NCBI GenBank assembly: GCA_950075865.1
Contig: CATMVA010000005.1
Span: forward strand, 1-64,000
Origin: an uncultured Oscillospiraceae bacterium
Lineage (GTDB): Bacteria > Bacillota > Clostridia > Oscillospirales > Oscillospiraceae
DNA: 64,000 nt
Direction of reading: 5' to 3'
Part shown: positions 1 to 31,003 of the stretch, piece after piece
How the letters are laid out: every line of letters begins with the position of its first letter
Position numbering within the stretch: position 1 is the first letter of the stretch
The notes under the pieces: generated by a model
The model's input: only the letters and a program-made list of their open reading frames with translations
Database searches by the model: none
Told to the model about the DNA's origin: nothing
Made by a program: the position numbers and the translations under genes

Positions 1-55
1 CCATTGCGGTTCCGGGAATTTTCTCTTTGGCGCAGAAGGAGGGATTCGAACCCTC
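1..55. repeat. attL core repeat (tRNA-Ser 3' end plus terminator half)
   Basis: Bases 1-55 are identical to 30886-30940. Bases 28-55 are the last 28 nt of tRNA-Ser(GCT), read on the minus strand and including CCA. Bases 1-17 are one arm of the GC-rich terminator hairpin that follows that tRNA. Homology stops after base 55 (cttgaa here, gcacgg in the right copy). The repeat probably continues left of the window, because the right copy is preceded by the matching terminator arm. Confidence 0.93.
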
Positions 56-73
56 CTTGAAATTCTTATAGCT

Positions 74-1168
74 CTACGGAGACAATGGCACATTTTCAAT
101 GTGAGCGTTTTCGTGAGCGTTTTTTCCGCTGAAAAAGCCGGCAAAGGCATCCTCGTACCGTTTGACATCGCTCTGGGCGATGTGGGTGTAGATCCGCCGC
201 ATGGTGCCGTAATCAGACCACCCGCCGATCTCCATAGTGACTTGCTCAGGCACCTGAAGGTGATAGGCCAGGGAGGCAAAGGAGTGGCGTAACCCATGCA
301 TTGTTACCGGTGGGAGCTTCTCTTTGGCGCACAGACGGGCCAAGGAGTCCCGCAAGGTTAGCTCCCGCCGCGTACCAACCACTGGCTTGCCGGCTTCCTG
401 TGCGGCCTCCAGGGCTGCCTGGAGCTGCTCCATAAGGATGGGCACATAGCGGGTGGAGCTACGGTTTTTGGTTTCTGGTTTCCGGACCAGCTTATGATCC
501 CGGCCTGGTACAGCGGCACCGGATACCCGGATCCGCTTGTGCTTCAGATCCACATCCTCCCATCGGAGGGCCATGATCTCAGACATTCGCAGGCTGGAGA
601 GGGCCAGGAGAAATGGGATCTCATAAGGGTGCCCCTTGACAGCGGTCAAAAAGGACTGGATCTCGGCAGCGTCCAGAAAAGTCCGCTCTTTTGGCACCAC
701 TTGGGGCAAGGAAACCTCTGGAAGCTCCCGCCCTGTGGCCTGTTTGATGGCGGGGCACACCAGCCCCCAGGCGTTTTTGAGCGTCTTGGCAGAGCACAAG
801 GCGGCTTCTGCATTGACGGCAGCGATGAGATCCCCGTCGCTGATTTGGTCAAGGGGCCTATCCATGAGGGCCTTGAAGCGGTTACGCTTTACAATGTCAT
901 ATCCCCGAAGGGTGGCAGGGGAGAGGGTATTGCTACGGCTATCGATGTATGAATCGATGGCCTCCCGGAGGGTGGGGAGCTGCTGAGGCTCCGATTCTGG
1001 ATCGGGAGACGCCTGCCGCTTGCCGGCCAAGTACTCGGCTTTGGTGATCTGGGCAAGGCGGACGCACTCCTTCTCCGTCCGGGCGTTGATGTTGATACTC
1101 TCGCCGCCCAGCCGGAGCTGGATGCGCCAAGTGCCGGAGGGCAGTTTGCGGGCCTTTGGTATTTTCAT
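74..1168 (-). CDS. int: Phage tyrosine integrase
   Basis: Site-specific recombinase that would insert and excise the prophage at tRNA-Ser. The 364-residue protein has an N-terminal arm-binding region (about 1-60), a SAM-like core-binding region (about 65-150) and a catalytic domain with R194, the HGLR box (H291, R294), W317 in the usual His/Trp position and nucleophile Y327. The gene reads toward attL and its end lies 19 bp from the repeat. Its ATG overlaps the stop of the upstream membrane-protein gene (ATGA), so the two are probably co-translated. The C-terminal tail after about residue 345 is unusual in that its codons coincide with the putative arm sites. Confidence 0.97.
   Translation of the reverse strand: MKIPKARKLPSGTWRIQLRLGGESININARTEKECVRLAQITKAEYLAGKRQASPDPESEPQQLPTLREAIDSYIDSRSNTLSPATLRGYDIVKRNRFKALMDRPLDQISDGDLIAAVNAEAALCSAKTLKNAWGLVCPAIKQATGRELPEVSLPQVVPKERTFLDAAEIQSFLTAVKGHPYEIPFLLALSSLRMSEIMALRWEDVDLKHKRIRVSGAAVPGRDHKLVRKPETKNRSSTRYVPILMEQLQAALEAAQEAGKPVVGTRRELTLRDSLARLCAKEKLPPVTMHGLRHSFASLAYHLQVPEQVTMEIGGWSDYGTMRRIYTHIAQSDVKRYEDAFAGFFSGKNAHENAHIENVPLSP
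101..122. other. Left arm-type integrase sites (two direct repeats)
   Basis: GTGAGCGTTT occurs at 101-110 and again at 113-122, with a 12-bp period. The same pair, with the same spacing and orientation, lies at 30756-30777 at the other prophage end. Paired short repeats flanking the core on both sides are what arm-binding domains of lambda/Tn916-type integrases use. The left pair lies inside the int gene and encodes Asn-Ala-His-Glu-Asn-Ala-His near its C-terminus. Assignment as arm sites is inference. Confidence 0.7.
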
Positions 1169-2103
1169 GGCTTCCCCAAGTCCAGCACCATGGTATCGTT
1201 GACCGAGATCCAGTACGGGGTGTAGGATTCCCCGTCGTCGGTCATCATGAGGGCGATGCGGCCGTAAATGCGAGGCGCCCAGACGGTGGTGGTGCCGTCC
1301 TGATTGTGGATCACGGTCCAGCCGTCAGTGCTGAGGGGCCCATAGTCCACATCGGGGGCATACAGATCCAACGCCACGGTAGCGGCGGAGATGGCCCGAC
1401 GATCCCAGTCGGCGGCCGCCTTTGCCGCCTTTTCCCGTTGGCTGGTGATCACAAAGACGGCGCCCCAGCTGAGGACTATGACAATGAGGCAGATTATTAC
1501 AAGGGGCTTGAAGATTCTCTGGCCCAGTGGCTTCTGAACGGTTTTGGGGTCATAAACATAGACCGGCCGGGGCTTGGCTCCTTGGAATGGCCCCACATCG
1601 CCCAGTTCTTCCAACTGGTCCATGACTGCCTCGGCCATGCTATAGGGGATATTGATACCACGCTGGATCTCCACGGTATTGACGGTGGGGCGGGATACTA
1701 CCCACTGCCGGGCTCGGTTCAATACGTCTTGCGGTACATCAACCTTACGGCGCTGGTAGGTAGATGCCGGGGCGTCAAGGATCTCAAGGAGGATGTTGCA
1801 GCCGTGAGTCAGGCCGTCGCCGCCAGTAAGCTCAGTGATGGAGGCCTCTACCCGGTCCTCGTCCACAGCCTCGGCCAGCTCGGCGGCGAGCTCGGCGCTG
1901 AGATAGCCAATGTGATCGCCGTCGTGGTATACCATAACGGCATTGGAGTCGTATGGATTTTCGGGGTCATGTGTGAGGGTCAACAGGTCGCCTTCACAGT
2001 CTTCCTCGGCCATGGATTTGAGGATTCGCTGGATGGAGGTGCCGTCCTCGTTTTTCTTGGAGACGCCCACAATCTTGGTGTTGATCGATTGCAGTACCGC
2101 CAT
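1165..2103 (-). CDS. HIRAN-like / FtsK-gamma-like membrane protein
   Basis: A 312-residue protein of unknown function with an uncommon domain order. Residues about 4-95 resemble a HIRAN domain (the DPENPYDSNAVMV stretch followed by GYLS is typical), a fold that binds DNA ends in HLTF-type helicases. Residues about 125-173 closely resemble the winged-helix gamma domain of FtsK/SpoIIIE (QRGINIPYSMAEAVMDQLEE, then VGPFQGAKPR), which reads chromosome-orientation sequences. Residues about 198-220 form one membrane helix, leaving an 85-residue C-terminal part probably outside the cell. No motor or nuclease motif is visible. It lies between repressor and integrase in the lysogeny operon, so it is probably expressed in the lysogen. 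Confidence 0.8.
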   Translation of the reverse strand: MAVLQSINTKIVGVSKKNEDGTSIQRILKSMAEEDCEGDLLTLTHDPENPYDSNAVMVYHDGDHIGYLSAELAAELAEAVDEDRVEASITELTGGDGLTHGCNILLEILDAPASTYQRRKVDVPQDVLNRARQWVVSRPTVNTVEIQRGINIPYSMAEAVMDQLEELGDVGPFQGAKPRPVYVYDPKTVQKPLGQRIFKPLVIICLIVIVLSWGAVFVITSQREKAAKAAADWDRRAISAATVALDLYAPDVDYGPLSTDGWTVIHNQDGTTTVWAPRIYGRIALMMTDDGESYTPYWISVNDTMVLDLGKP

Positions 2104-2120
2104 AGTCCTCTCTCCCTCAT

Positions 2121-2139
2121 GGTGTCCATTTTGGACACC
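2121..2139. promoter_or_regulatory. Perfect 7+7 palindrome upstream of the HIRAN-like gene
   Basis: GGTGTCC and GGACACC are separated by 5 bp, 17 bp upstream of the start of the leftward gene. On the plus strand the palindrome is followed after 4 nt by seven T residues, so it could be a terminator for rightward transcripts. On the minus strand it would be a 5'-UTR hairpin or an operator. A second small hairpin (CCTGCC/GGCAGG, 2153-2168) sits just beside it. Confidence 0.45.
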
Positions 2140-2172
2140 GCTATTTTTTTATCCTGCCGAAAGGCAGGTAGA

Positions 2173-2526
2173 TCACATGGCTTTGGAGCCTTTTTCCCCC
2201 GTATGGAGCCAGGGGTCCAAGGCCAGGGCCACCATATCCTTGGCCCGGCCGTCGGCGGCCCGGTATGCGGTCAGGAAGTCCAGCTCGGGGCCGGACAGCT
2301 CAATCCCGCCGGCTGAGGGCAAGGCCTCCCCCAGCAACTCGCTGGTGGTGACGCCAAGGTAGGTGGCCAGTTGTTGGACGCGCTCCACCGAGGGAATTTG
2401 TCCTCGCACTTCGATATTGTTGATGAAGCTACTTCCTACCCCTGATTCACGGCAGGCTACTGTGGGCTTGACTCCCTTTTTGGCGCAGTACTTTTTGATG
2501 TTTTCCACAAAAGTTGACCGATCCAT
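2173..2526 (-). CDS. Phage repressor, XRE/Cro-CI type
   Basis: DNA-binding protein, probably the lysogeny repressor. An N-terminal helix-turn-helix (about residues 5-65; ACRESGVGSSFINNIE is the recognition part, then SVERVQQLATYLGVTTSELL) is followed by a short C-terminal segment of about 45 residues. There is no LexA-type autoprotease domain, so induction would not be by RecA self-cleavage of this protein. I chose the ATG at 2526 because AGGTGAGG sits at good distance; a GTG at 2535 is in frame. It faces the rightward early promoter across a 225-bp operator region. Confidence 0.85.
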   Translation of the reverse strand: MDRSTFVENIKKYCAKKGVKPTVACRESGVGSSFINNIEVRGQIPSVERVQQLATYLGVTTSELLGEALPSAGGIELSGPELDFLTAYRAADGRAKDMVALALDPWLHTGEKGSKAM

Positions 2527-7845: not shown

Positions 7846-8658
7846 ATGCGGACCATAGCAGTATGCAATCTCAAGGGCGGGGTGGCCAAGACGGCCACCG
7901 TGATCAACGTGGCCGCCGTCCTTGCCAAAGACTACAAGCAGCACGTGCTGGTGATCGACGCCGACAGCCAGTGCAACACCACCGAGTTTTTCGGCGGGGA
8001 TCCCAGCGTGGGGAACCTTGCCGACCATCTGAGGGCCAAGTGCCCCTCGGGCTTTGACCCGGCCCAGCAGCTTCTGGAGGTGATCCGGCCCTCTAACTTT
8101 TCCGGGGTGGATCTCCTGTGCGGGGACGACAGCCTGATGGACCTTGACCTGTCCAAGGTGGAGGGTCAGGAGGTCAATGTGGGGATCCTCCGGGATCTCC
8201 GGGAGCTGATCGAGGAGCTGGACGCCGGGCTCCCGCCAGAGGAAGAGCCGATGGACTGGTGCCTGATCGACTGCCCGCCGGCCTTCAACGCGGCCTCGGC
8301 GGCCGCCCTGCTGATGGCGGACGAGGTGCTGATCCCCATCAAGCTGGACGCCTTCGCCCTCCGGGGCATGGCCAACCTGCTCCGGCAGATCGAGAATATG
8401 CGAAAGATCAACCCCAACCTGCGGCTGCTGGGGTGCCTGCCCACCATGTGGTACAAGTCCCAGCGCACCGAGGAGTCGGAGAAGATCCTCCGGGAGAGCG
8501 GCCTGCCTGTCTTTGACCACATCCGCCGCACCGACAAGGTGGACGAGATGACCTTTGCCCAAGAGCCGCTGCTGGTGAGCTCGCCCCGCAGCGCCGCCGG
8601 GGTGGACTACCGCCGGCTGGTGCGCGAGCTGGTGAAAGGAGGGAAGGACAATGGCTGA
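7846..8658 (+). CDS. parA: ParA-type partition ATPase
   Basis: A 270-residue ParA/Soj-family ATPase that would position DNA copies together with ParB. The deviant Walker A box is KGGVAKTAT near residue 10, keeping the signature lysine of KGG and the P-loop Lys-Thr; Gly is replaced by Ala before that lysine. VIDADSQCN is the Walker A' motif and WCLIDCPPAF the Walker B. The ATG follows GAGGAGG. The gene overlaps parB by 8 bp. In a chromosomally integrated prophage it suggests a plasmid-like phase or a role in segregating replicating phage DNA. Confidence 0.92.
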   Translation: MRTIAVCNLKGGVAKTATVINVAAVLAKDYKQHVLVIDADSQCNTTEFFGGDPSVGNLADHLRAKCPSGFDPAQQLLEVIRPSNFSGVDLLCGDDSLMDLDLSKVEGQEVNVGILRDLRELIEELDAGLPPEEEPMDWCLIDCPPAFNAASAAALLMADEVLIPIKLDAFALRGMANLLRQIENMRKINPNLRLLGCLPTMWYKSQRTEESEKILRESGLPVFDHIRRTDKVDEMTFAQEPLLVSSPRSAAGVDYRRLVRELVKGGKDNG

Positions 8659-10312
8659 GGAGAAGAAAAAGGGCTTTGACCTGGCGGCTGCGCTGGGGGC
8701 GGTGTCGGAATTGGACACCGGGGCCGATGGACGGGAGCAGCTCAAGTACATAGACCTCGAGAAGATCCATCCCGATCCGGACAATTTCTACTCCCTGGAC
8801 GGGGTGGAGGAGCTGGCCGGCAACATCGAGCTCATCGGGCTCCAGCAGCCCCTCCGGGTCCGGCCCGATCCGGAGCATGAGAGCGAGTACATCATCGTTT
8901 CCGGCCACCGGCGCCGGGCGGCTATCGAGCTGCTGGTCAAGGAGGGCAAGTTTGGGCTGGTCCCGTGCCTCATTGAGGGCCACCAGGAGAGCGACGCTAT
9001 GCGGCAGCTCCGGCTGATCATGGCCAACAGCTCCACCCGGACGCTGACCTCAGCGGACTTGGCCACCCAGGCCCAAAAGGTGGAGGAACTGCTTTACAAG
9101 CTCAAGGAGGAGGGCACCGAGTTCCCCGGCAGGATGCGGGACCACGTGGCCGCGGTCTGCCAGGTACAGGCATCCAAGCTGGCCAGGCTGAAGGTGATCC
9201 GGGAGAACTTGACGGGCAAGATGCTGGAGGCATGGGAGGCCGGGACGCTCAACGAGGATTGTGCCTATAAGCTGGCCCGCATGGATGAGAATTTCCGCAA
9301 TCAGATTTGGGCTATACGGGGCGGCGATAACTGGGACTTCCATGGGGCAGCCGCTGTGGAAGAGTACAGGCGCCGTCTGGAGATTATCTATTCGGGGGAG
9401 ACAACCGATGCCGTTCCCTGCGGCTTGAAGACCTGCGACAATAGGACACTCCGCGCCGGCAAGGCTCTTCAAAACAGCATCTACGCAATTCCTCCTTGTT
9501 TGTATTGCTGCGGGGAGTGCCCAAACTTGGCTGCCTGCCCCAACGCCTGCCCGCACCTTGCGGATAAGATCGAGGTCCTCAAATCACAAATGCTCGCCGC
9601 CAAAGCTGCCGATAAGAAAGTAAAGGAGCAGGACGACGCCAAGAGAAAAGCCCAGCGTGAAGAAGCCCTTCGGTTTGCGGTCGCCGGGTGGCGGCGGCTG
9701 GGTGAGGCTTTGGATCGAGCCGGAAAGAGCGTCCTCTGGTTGACTGAGCTCTTGGACTGGGATCCTGACGAGGATGGGGTGGAGATGTTTGAGAGCCTGC
9801 TCCATGGGGGCGAGGTCACCAAGGATAACCTCTGGATCGCCGAGGATCACCCCCTTCAGGACATCTACACTCCGGATCTGATCAAGCTGGCCGACGAGCT
9901 GGGAGTGTCCATGGACTATCTCTTCGGCCGCACTGATGAGCTGGGTGGGAGCAAGGGGGCGCCGACGGAAATATCCGCCGATGCAAAGCCACGGTGGCAG
10001 ACCGGGCAACCATTCAGATCCGGTCGGTATTACTGCCTGATAGAGTGTGAGGGCCACCGGTTGTCGATGACGCTCCACTGGTTGAATAGTTTCCTTGAGT
10101 GGCACATGGCCGGGGGCGGCGGGCTCACTCAGGGCTGCGAGGTGGTGGGCTGGTGGCCCCTGCCGGAGGATGCCCCAGAGGACGCTGAGGACGACGATGA
10201 AGGGGACGATGAGGACAACATGGATGCCCTCTGGTATGGCCACGAGGACGATGACGATTATCTTGCAGCGAGCAGCGAGGTGTTGGGGGCGGAGGAAGGA
10301 GATCAAGAATGA
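8651..10312 (+). CDS. parB: Enlarged ParB-family protein with extra C-terminal domains
   Basis: Residues about 30-125 are a ParB/Srx nuclease-like CTP-binding domain with the GHRRRAA box (85-91). A helix-turn-helix region (about 150-210) follows. Normal ParB proteins end near 290 residues, but this one has 553. A cluster of eight cysteines lies between about 236 and 290 (PPCLYCCGECPNLAACPNAC), probably a metal site. Then come a coiled helical part, an XRE-like fragment (PDLIKLADELGVSMDYLFGR, about 403-422), a DUF551-like ending (about 445-508, WWPLPE) and a very acidic tail. It should bind a parS site that I could not identify. Confidence 0.88.
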   Translation: MAEEKKKGFDLAAALGAVSELDTGADGREQLKYIDLEKIHPDPDNFYSLDGVEELAGNIELIGLQQPLRVRPDPEHESEYIIVSGHRRRAAIELLVKEGKFGLVPCLIEGHQESDAMRQLRLIMANSSTRTLTSADLATQAQKVEELLYKLKEEGTEFPGRMRDHVAAVCQVQASKLARLKVIRENLTGKMLEAWEAGTLNEDCAYKLARMDENFRNQIWAIRGGDNWDFHGAAAVEEYRRRLEIIYSGETTDAVPCGLKTCDNRTLRAGKALQNSIYAIPPCLYCCGECPNLAACPNACPHLADKIEVLKSQMLAAKAADKKVKEQDDAKRKAQREEALRFAVAGWRRLGEALDRAGKSVLWLTELLDWDPDEDGVEMFESLLHGGEVTKDNLWIAEDHPLQDIYTPDLIKLADELGVSMDYLFGRTDELGGSKGAPTEISADAKPRWQTGQPFRSGRYYCLIECEGHRLSMTLHWLNSFLEWHMAGGGGLTQGCEVVGWWPLPEDAPEDAEDDDEGDDEDNMDALWYGHEDDDDYLAASSEVLGAEEGDQE

Positions 10313-27128: not shown

Positions 27129-28276
27129 GGACCCAAATAGTCAGCTGCACCCAGGCGTCCATCACCCTCGGCCGCGCCGGCGAGAACCGGGCCCAGGAGG
27201 TCATCTTTGACGTGGCCGCCTGGCGGTCCTCCTTCGGCCCCGGCGGGGTCTCTCTGCTGGTCCGCCGGCCCGGCGAGGCCCAGCCCTACCCCGTGGCCCT
27301 TGAGGACCGCGGGGACACTGTCGCCTGGGTGGTGTCGGATTTAGACACCGCCTTCCCCGGCTTTGGCCAGGCCGAGCTGATCTACTCGGTGGCAGAGACC
27401 GTGGTCAAGTCCCGCATCTGGCAGACCTATGTGGAGGAGGCTCTGGACGGCTCCAATCCCTCTGACCCCACCGCGGATCCCTGGGCCCAGTATGTGGCCA
27501 CCGTCATCCAGGCGGCCTCAGAGGCTCAGCAGGCGGCCCAGAGGGCCCAGGAGGCCCTGGACCATGCCCCCCAGATCCGGGACGGTTCCTGGTGGCTTTG
27601 GGACCCCAAGACGGGGGAATATGTGGACACCGACACCTCCGCCTCCGGCCTCCCCGGCCTCCAGGGGGAAACCGGCCCCGCCGGTCCTGCCGGCCCCCAA
27701 GGTCCTGCTGGTCCGCAAGGAGATGCAGGACCCGTTGGACCCGAAGGCCCCCAGGGCCCCAAGGGGGAAACCGGGGATCCCGGTCCCGAAGGCCCCCGAG
27801 GACCAAAGGGAGAGCCCGGAAAGGATGCCGTTCTGCCGGAGGAGGCCACGTTCAAAAAGGTCTCTGTGGTAGATCCAGAATCCACAACAAGTATCGTAAT
27901 GGATAAAGACGGCGTTCTTGCGAGCAATAACGGCTCGTTTGCTGCTGTGTTGATGAAACCCCATAATGGTTTTTGGCCAGGATCTGAAGGGACTGGATCT
28001 TTTGCGATTGAGTTCCAGTCAGATATTAACGACCCCAATATTACGACACCGGCGTTCCTTGAATCCTGGCTCTCTTATGATGATACTTACGCCCAGTTTA
28101 TTTTGCACTTGAGAGAGAGTAATTATAGCGGACTCTGTGTCAGAATCGATGCGGATACTACAGAGATTGCCAACGACGGTGACCTCACCACCAAAAAATA
28201 TGTGGACGCAACCATCGCCCACGAGATCGGAGAAATCAACAAGATCCTGGACAACATCAACGGGGAGGTGGTCTGA
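27125..28276 (+). CDS. Baseplate protein, BppU-like N-terminus with collagen repeats
   Basis: A 383-residue protein. Residues about 1-110 resemble the BppU N-terminal domain that docks to the tail tip. Then comes a helical linker, a collagen-like region of about 19 Gly-X-Y triplets (about 179-236, with [13 protein letters not shown]), and a C-terminal domain that trimerises or binds receptor. Collagen-like stalks are frequent in phage fibres. It starts inside the end of the hub gene and its stop overlaps the next ATG. The C-terminal domain is less GC-rich than the stalk. Confidence 0.85.
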
Positions 28277-30885: not shown

Positions 30886-30940
30886 CCATTGCGGTTCCGG
30901 GAATTTTCTCTTTGGCGCAGAAGGAGGGATTCGAACCCTC
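30886..30940. repeat. attR core repeat
   Basis: Identical to bases 1-55. It covers the 3' end of tRNA-Ser(GCT) (30913-30940) and part of the terminator behind it (stem around 30880-30902, minus-strand direction). Confidence 0.95.
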
Positions 30941-31003
30941 GCACGGTTTTACCCGCCTACTCCCTTAGCAGGGGAGCCCCTTCGGCCACTTGGGTACTTC
31001 TGC
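30913..31003 (-). tRNA. tRNA-Ser(GCT)
   Basis: A 91-nt class II tRNA with a long variable arm. The acceptor GCAGAAG pairs with CTTCTGC, the discriminator is G and CCA is encoded. The anticodon loop CTGCTAA gives anticodon GCU for AGC/AGU codons. It is intact although the prophage is inserted in its 3' end. Confidence 0.97.

Follow-up and report, generated by a model that had tools for sequence, protein, structure and literature searches.

Several described proteins come close to one part or another of the protein reported here. The ltp gene of Streptococcus phage TP-J34 belongs to the lysogeny module and is expressed from the prophage, and its product is reported to prevent the injection of DNA, acting outside the membrane (PMC3952083). 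The HIRAN domain of HLTF is described as a six-stranded barrel with two helices, its DNA-end pocket being flanked by Y72 and Y93, and joint replacement of N90 and N91 led to loss of function (PMC4666394). HIRAN occurs together with HipA-type kinases, and recognition of phage DNA ends by the bacterial domain was proposed for HipL and HipN, as an unproven idea (PMC8262856); HIRAN also adjoins diDNase genes (PMC11706625). For the gamma domain of E. coli FtsK, the tabulated contacts with XerD include Q1288, R1289, R1292 and N1296 (PMC5052618, Table 1), and joint replacement of N1296, R1300 and E1303, or of N926, R930 and E933 in V. cholerae, was reported to abolish recognition of the FtsK orienting polar sequences (KOPS) (PMC2533119). 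FtsK_gamma has been noted in fusion to a phage small terminase, along with lone phage genes that resemble gamma and whose role is unknown (PMC8190038), and the FtsK winged helix has been noted as a rare component of polyvalent proteins (PMC5512222). Here we analyzed 64,000 nucleotides of an uncultured Oscillospiraceae bacterium (contig CATMVA010000005.1, positions 1 to 64,000; the window hereafter), where a prophage gene at 1165..2103 on the minus strand encodes a membrane protein combining HIRAN with an FtsK-gamma-like domain. Our tentative prediction is a moron-type membrane protein of the lysogen, probably serving superinfection exclusion or another envelope-guarding role.

The open reading frame (ORF) is real: from an ATG start it encodes 312 residues, with HIRAN and a gamma-type winged helix before one membrane helix, which a compact domain follows. 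The sequences DPENPYDSNAVMV, GYLS and VGPFQGAKPR are all present. All parts lie on the minus strand. The HIRAN region covers residues 1-111 (1771..2103), with the Pfam match at residues 38-105 (PF08797, E 3.8e-11, 43.1 bits against a curated cutoff of 24.7). The FtsK-gamma-like winged helix covers residues 126-183 (1555..1728; PF09397, E 1e-9, 38.4 bits against a curated cutoff of 30.6). By hydropathy, the single membrane helix spans residues ~201-219 (1447..1503; a helix at 195-248 in the AlphaFold model), and the C-terminal domain takes up residues 226-312 (1168..1428). A Pfam scan of the 312 residues at E 1 returned HIRAN, FtsK_gamma, a weak TrmB match and nothing else, with no match for the FtsK_SpoIIIE motor domain. 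The integrase start overlaps the stop of the gene as ATGA (gap -4). Pfam, hydropathy and locus layout thus agree with the original prediction, made from the DNA letters, as to the domains and their order, the membrane helix, the missing ATPase motor, the ATGA coupling and the lysogeny-operon setting; its list of parts had left out the domain beyond the membrane helix. In the whole-protein AlphaFold model, built from two sequences, the mean predicted local distance difference test (pLDDT) was 63.7 for the best of five and 40.5 for the worst. Structure prediction, which had been proposed as a check, gave six strands and two helices for residues 1-110 at moderate confidence (block pLDDT 62-81), and three helices at 125-166 of the gamma region (pLDDT 71-80); the wing at 172-192 stayed below 50, too weak to place, and the C-terminal part was weak (45-61).

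A full-length homologue was found on a viral contig, L057, reached through its integrase. It is 64% identical and also 312 residues long, with HIRAN (E 2.8e-12, 46.7 bits against 24.7) and FtsK_gamma (E 1.9e-13, 50.3 bits against 30.6) both above the Pfam cutoffs. The order repressor, gene, integrase is the same, a tRNA end adjoins it (by eye), and its repressor, like that of the window, has no S24 peptidase match. Between the two proteins the ratio of nonsynonymous to synonymous substitution rates (dN/dS) was 0.25 for HIRAN, 0.18 for gamma, 0.15 for the membrane helix and 0.24 for the C-terminal part, at dS values of 0.6-2.3 that are partly saturated; the ratio of the 13-residue linker was not estimable. 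Purifying selection therefore acts on all parts with an estimable ratio. In a related prophage of the same genus (G015), the same slot holds a 209-residue membrane protein with about three membrane segments, which matches the window protein from residue 192 on only, at 58% identity. The operon of G015 lacks HIRAN and gamma, its repressor carries an S24 peptidase domain (E 2.6e-27), and the prophage shares parA- and parB-like genes with that of the window. Since G015 shares the C-terminal part only, this part and the HIRAN/gamma half are modules that can occur apart.

The search for the same domain order and its neighbourhoods, also suggested beforehand, thus led to one full-length homologue, in the same slot, and to no further protein with HIRAN and gamma among the matches listed. 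With the whole protein, 87 of 99 relatives had a match at E 0.001, nearly all of them host FtsK gamma, and the C-terminal part was matched in the own genome and G015 only. Across 400 genomes the N-terminal half found 7 at E 1e-8, with HIRAN covered in the own row only, and HIRAN alone found 11 at E 1e-3, own included. The C-terminal part found 5 at E 0.01, namely the own genome and four weak matches (E 7e-4 to 0.009), with G015 missing. A HIRAN+gamma profile matched 242 of 285, and among the matches listed the own row alone spans both domains, G445 and G661 being HIRAN and the others gamma with or without linker. Viral contigs were searched with the whole protein, the C-terminal part and two alignments, A1 and A2; both alignments matched the known contig only (as L067), and against genome contigs A1 had no match and A2 matched L101, apparently the G015 locus, only. 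Phage records yielded one match to the whole protein at E 1e-5, carrying a full-length FtsK-like ORF, 32 matches to the N-terminal half at E 1, none covering 80%, and none to the C-terminal part at 0.01; plasmid records yielded five partial matches. The record L056 (MT837656.1, 'Bacteriophage sp.') has a 921-residue FtsK-like ORF and, by eye, housekeeping-like genes, and is probably host DNA.

The position between repressor and integrase is an accessory-gene slot, for which Ltp of phage TP-J34 offers a precedent. We surveyed 39 loci with related integrases: 10 viral ones, L003, and 28 that came from 25 family genomes, own included, when 400 of these were searched at E 1e-40. The rule was mechanical, taking the longest ORF of at least 60 residues with its end no more than 160 bases ahead of the integrase start or 20 past it. 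Such an ORF was found in 32 loci, the window, L057 and G015 included, and in 7 there was none. A hydrophobic segment or signal was present in 20 of the 32, a raw tally with no background rate, which includes the window, counts the same protein in L059 and L060, and probably contains some spurious ORFs. The slot held helix-turn-helix (HTH) and zinc-ribbon-like proteins with membrane helices and, by eye, an ImmA-like peptidase, an exonuclease and a coiled coil. HTH plus membrane helix stands directly before the integrase in L059 (3376-3816), L061 (883-1755) and L063 (3410-3985); the HTH of L059 (HTH_3) is above the Pfam cutoff, with the same sequence in L060, and those of L061 and L063 are below. 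Next to repressors related to that of the window, in L122, L125 and L181, the following protein has a lipoprotein-like or membrane N-terminus (partly by eye). The one in L181 (2007-2705) is lipoprotein-like, and its C-terminal part resembles BLIP (Pfam E 4.8e-6).

We suggest that the lysogen would make an accessory membrane protein from its repressor-integrase operon. The N-terminus is probably cytoplasmic and the last ~85 residues outward; with the N-terminus inside, the one-helix protein and the three-helix protein of G015 would both place the C-terminus outside. Because it is only the outward domain that recurs in the slot protein of a related prophage, also a membrane protein, this domain would be the common working part, meeting the incoming phage or its receptor. 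The HIRAN/gamma half may be an exchangeable cytoplasmic sensor or partner-binding module, in which HIRAN could recognize injected DNA by its free end and gamma would act as a protein-binding or structural winged helix, not as a reader of KOPS or of SpoIIIE recognition sequences (SRS). In favor of this reading are the same slot and gene order in the window and L057, the sharing of the C-terminal part and its confident model, the slot survey, the lipoprotein-like or membrane proteins next to related repressors, the proposal made for HipL and HipN (PMC8262856), a match of the HIRAN part to the PADLOC candidate-defence family PDC-M03B (E 3.9e-7) and the loss of the arginines at E. coli positions 1297 and 1300. 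Excluding incoming phage, one of the functions offered in the original prediction, is also the one best supported by position.

Modelled alone from three sequences, the C-terminal domain (residues 226-312) formed one helix and five strands (pLDDT 86, predicted template-modelling score 0.79), and of the five models three were good, with pLDDT 86, 85 and 78. Identity to the window protein is 79% in L057 and 69% in L101, and the block DGTTTVWAPR-YG-I-LM-TDDGESYTPY is invariant in the three sequences. Several observations, however, weigh against an envelope-guarding moron. The other two models were poor (43), the domain has no relative among PDB sequences below E 0.25, a known family was not recovered (DUF5111 came closest in Pfam, below cutoff at E 0.061 and for one of the three sequences), and carriers at good E-values are three only. 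In G015 the slot gene is uncoupled, ending 129 nucleotides before the integrase, and 12 of the 32 slot ORFs had no hydrophobic segment. Furthermore, between the window and L057 the C-terminal part is 79% identical and HIRAN and gamma are 54% and 53%, with dS values of 0.62 against 1.49 and 2.34. Since dS is lower there as well, the higher identity does not mean stronger constraint; the C-terminal part may instead be younger or exchanged, and this lowered our confidence somewhat. The notion that the C-terminal part is the most important because it is the most conserved was dropped on account of this lower dS; its dN/dS of 0.24 is close to the 0.25 of HIRAN.

The gamma part retains the profile match but, judged from the alignments, not the DNA-reading face of FtsK. 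As a lone sequence against PDB sequences it gave nothing convincing (best yhgG, E 1, and FtsK 2j5p, E 1.5), and the two-sequence profile found FtsK gamma (2j5o/2ve8) at ~7e-4. We compared it with 36 gamma domains, 35 from genome loci with the own FtsK included and one from L056; the loci are a subset of the matches in the whole-protein and N-terminal-half genome searches. A segment Q-R-x-x-K-x-G-Y-[SA]-R-A-A-R is nearly fixed among them. At E. coli positions 1297 and 1300 all 36 have R/R, where the window protein has M/A and L057 T/A, and the recognition segment carries a net charge of -1 in the window and +1 in L057 against +3 to +4. Positions 1296, 1300 and 1303 read S/A/D in the window and T/A/D in L057, and S or A/R/D in the 36; as these themselves carry S or A at 1296 and D at 1303, R1300 is the telling residue. 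At the XerD-contacting positions 1288, 1289 and 1292 we found Q/R/N in the window, Q/K/G in L057 and Q/R/K in 36 of 36, although the K is not decisive since the motor-linked gamma of the viral contig L096 has N at 1292. Both arginines are present in the motor-linked gammas of three viral contigs, as RAAR in L096 and L097 and as RCVR in L098. Gamma scores were 38-50 bits for the window and L057 against 84.8-96.5 for L096, L097 and L249. As R1297 and R1300 are absent from both prophage proteins and R1300 is implicated in KOPS recognition, sequence-specific DNA tethering by gamma is unlikely, and the reading of chromosome-polarity sites that had been ascribed to it in the original prediction finds no support here.

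Judging from this case, selection seems able to maintain a gamma-type winged helix that has lost the conserved FtsK arginines, and an 'FtsK gamma' annotation on small phage proteins should not be read as KOPS binding. The gamma part also matches phrog_13700 (FtsK/SpoIIIE-like, 'moron'; E 2.5e-6, L057 2.1e-10), and the HIRAN part phrog_37629 (unknown function; 9.1e-12, L057 5.8e-10), each covering one half only of the window protein in the matches observed. phrog_6576 aligns with L057 residues 51-170, from HIRAN into gamma (E 6.4e-7), and could be another HIRAN-gamma fusion. On L249 (1419-2645, genome G060) a protein with two membrane segments, FtsK_gamma (E 7.4e-28), an Mrr_cat nuclease (E 3.4e-27) and no motor match looks like a restriction protein using gamma. 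The viral contig L097 has FtsK motor, gamma and Mrr_cat.

For the HIRAN part, the window protein alone found human HLTF HIRAN among PDB sequences at E 5e-5, and the two-sequence profile did so at 4.7e-5. The core reads NPYD in the window and NEYD in L057. Of the HLTF pocket, the equivalents of Y93 and N91 are kept and N90 is replaced, by E (window) or D (L057); residues 11-23, the possible place of Y72, hold no aromatic in either protein, in a segment that is unaligned with HLTF. Membrane linkage of HIRAN is not unique, as small HIRAN proteins with one membrane segment occur in related genomes (L242, L247).

The prophage measures ~30.9 kb and is inserted in tRNA-Ser, with attL (29..56, minus strand, the tRNA-Ser 3' end) and attR (30914..30941, minus strand, inside tRNA-Ser(gct) 30913-31003) one mismatch apart; terminase, portal, capsid and tail genes were recognized by eye in its ORF list. 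Repressor, HIRAN/gamma gene and integrase follow each other on the minus strand, with the XRE repressor at 2173..2526 and the tyrosine integrase at 74..1168. A hairpin CCTGCC-GAAA-GGCAGG (2153..2168, by eye) lies just past the repressor stop and recurs in L057 with an altered loop. In the region between repressor and early genes, direct repeats AGTACACTTTTAAGGA and AGTCCACTTTTAAGGA (2571-2586 and 2600-2615) surround a promoter-like site (11/12), and are possibly repressor operators. Between repressor and HIRAN/gamma gene stands a palindrome, TGGTGTCCATTTTGGACACCG (2120..2140), which scores as a terminator-like hairpin on the plus strand and has counterparts in L057 (3031-3049, exact half-sites) and L003 (1183-1201, two mismatches).

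This palindrome is dispersed, with a consensus GTGTCCAAATTGGACAC found in the window at 2121-2139, 8701-8719 and 27331-27349 as well as in L057 (3031-3049), G015 contig 39 and L102-L221, and as an operator of the HIRAN/gamma gene alone it was ruled out by its spread over many phage loci. With up to two mismatches, GGTGTC-N7-GACACC had 15 matches in the window, 12 of them inside the prophage, against 3.3 expected, and none of 100 shuffles had as many. Exact GTGTC-N7-GACAC sites lie in the prophage in 3 of 4 cases of the own genome and on the prophage contig in 5 of 5 of G015; with one mismatch there was no clear excess over the control (56 against 47 in the own genome, 55 against 57 in G015). 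The exact 17-mer occurs in at least 120 IMG/VR stretches, and no mention of it was found in the literature searched. The palindrome preceded a gene start by 8-45 nucleotides in 43 of 244 site-strand cases (96 of 120 loci) against 177 of 3840 random places, and the genes behind it include parB-like ones (L111, ParB_N). The integrated prophage itself encodes ParA (7846-8658, AAA_31, E 5.6e-33) and a ParB-like protein (8651-10312, ParB_N, E 4.7e-5, below cutoff), and among 80 partial loci (L102-L181), chosen for carrying the palindrome, with no control set and with some loci sharing one contig, 20 had a relative of the first and 19 one of the second. The palindrome is a candidate parS of a phage ParABS system.

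Other explanations of the HIRAN/gamma gene have to be weighed. The ToxR/CadC layout is the topology of transmembrane one-component regulators, and Trans_reg_C is the family name for the ToxR-like winged helix. The protein could be a lysogeny regulator of that kind, its outward domain sensing the envelope and its HIRAN/winged-helix half acting on DNA or on the repressor. A winged helix, one membrane helix and a domain beyond it fit such a layout, HTH proteins with a membrane helix occupy the same slot in L059/L060, L061 and L063, and the palindrome stands just before the gene in the window and L057 and, more weakly, in G015; it occurs, however, at many phage loci and lacks specificity for this gene. 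The S24 domain is missing from the repressors of the window and L057 and present in that of G015, where the slot protein has no HIRAN or gamma, a contrast based on three phages. The gamma recognition helix lacks the arginines and the basic charge, and at E 1 no Trans_reg_C match was obtained, the winged helix matching FtsK_gamma and weakly TrmB. Altogether we regard a regulator as unlikely. Less likely again is a DNA-end trap at the membrane: HIRAN, held at the entry site by the membrane helix and the outward domain, would catch the free 3' end of incoming DNA, and the de-programmed gamma would signal to the repressor, the integrase or host Xer/FtsK as a superinfection alarm. The protein would then belong to a wider set of motorless, membrane-held gammas including the L249 protein.

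That a membrane-held gamma activates or positions the integrase, touching the tyrosine recombinase as FtsK gamma touches XerD, appears very unlikely. The ATGA coupling would fit, as would the conservation of Q1288 and of R1289 (R in the window, K in L057) while R1297 and R1300 were lost (contacts as tabulated in PMC5052618), but the XerD contacts R1292 and N1296 are N/G and S/T (K and S/A in hosts), and a 58%-identical integrase lies, in G015, in an operon without HIRAN and gamma, which also weakens the placing of the integrase put forward in the original prediction. At E 1e-5 the integrase profile matched four PDB sequences, and XerD was not one of them. We would give even less credit to the view that the protein is a composite of captured domains in decay and that the C-terminal domain alone matters: the gamma scores are low beside those of L096, L097 and L249, but both proteins have 312 residues with open frames, and we lowered its already small probability because dN/dS of HIRAN and gamma is no weaker than that of the C-terminal part. 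The most improbable is a membrane tether for chromosome-polarity sites. FtsK_gamma is above the Pfam cutoff in both proteins and position 1300 is not absolutely fixed, since the motorless gamma of L249, which scores well, has H there; R1297 and R1300, the latter implicated in KOPS recognition (PMC2533119), are nevertheless missing from both, whereas all 36 comparison domains have them and the motor-linked gammas retain them (R/R). A moron-type guard of the envelope remains the reading that we tentatively prefer. If an outward block and HIRAN end sensing both held, one small protein would unite an envelope guard with a cytoplasmic DNA-end sensor, and it would offer a test of the published idea, unproven there, that bacterial HIRAN detects phage DNA ends (PMC8262856).

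In conclusion, the literature matches listed held, in titles and abstract openings, no description of a HIRAN, gamma and membrane-helix architecture, in line with the original prediction, to which it was unfamiliar from described systems. With HLTF, HipN and HipL the protein shares the Pfam HIRAN match, and it has the N91 and Y93 equivalents and, at moderate confidence, a prediction of six strands and two helices, but its HIRAN is membrane-linked, fused to gamma and changed at the N90 equivalent. The small HIRAN proteins of L242 and L247 are likewise membrane-linked, with the membrane helix ahead of HIRAN and no gamma match. With FtsK/SpoIIIE gamma it has in common the winged-helix profile and the VGPFxGAKPR wing motif, whereas the window and L057 proteins lack the motor, arginine at 1297 and 1300 and a basic residue at 1292. 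The L249 protein, too, is a membrane protein with a motorless gamma, but keeps R1297 (RAAH) and a basic helix, has an Mrr nuclease in place of HIRAN and the C-terminal domain, and lies among chromosomal-looking neighbours (by eye). Pfam contains an Ltp family, to which the window protein had no match at E 1. Like the Ltp superinfection-exclusion lipoproteins, it is nevertheless the membrane-anchored product of a lysogeny-module gene with a domain that is probably outside, differing from them by a membrane-helix anchor in place of a lipid and by its large N-terminal half. All in all, the arrangement of its domains is new and the kind of slot that its gene occupies is known.

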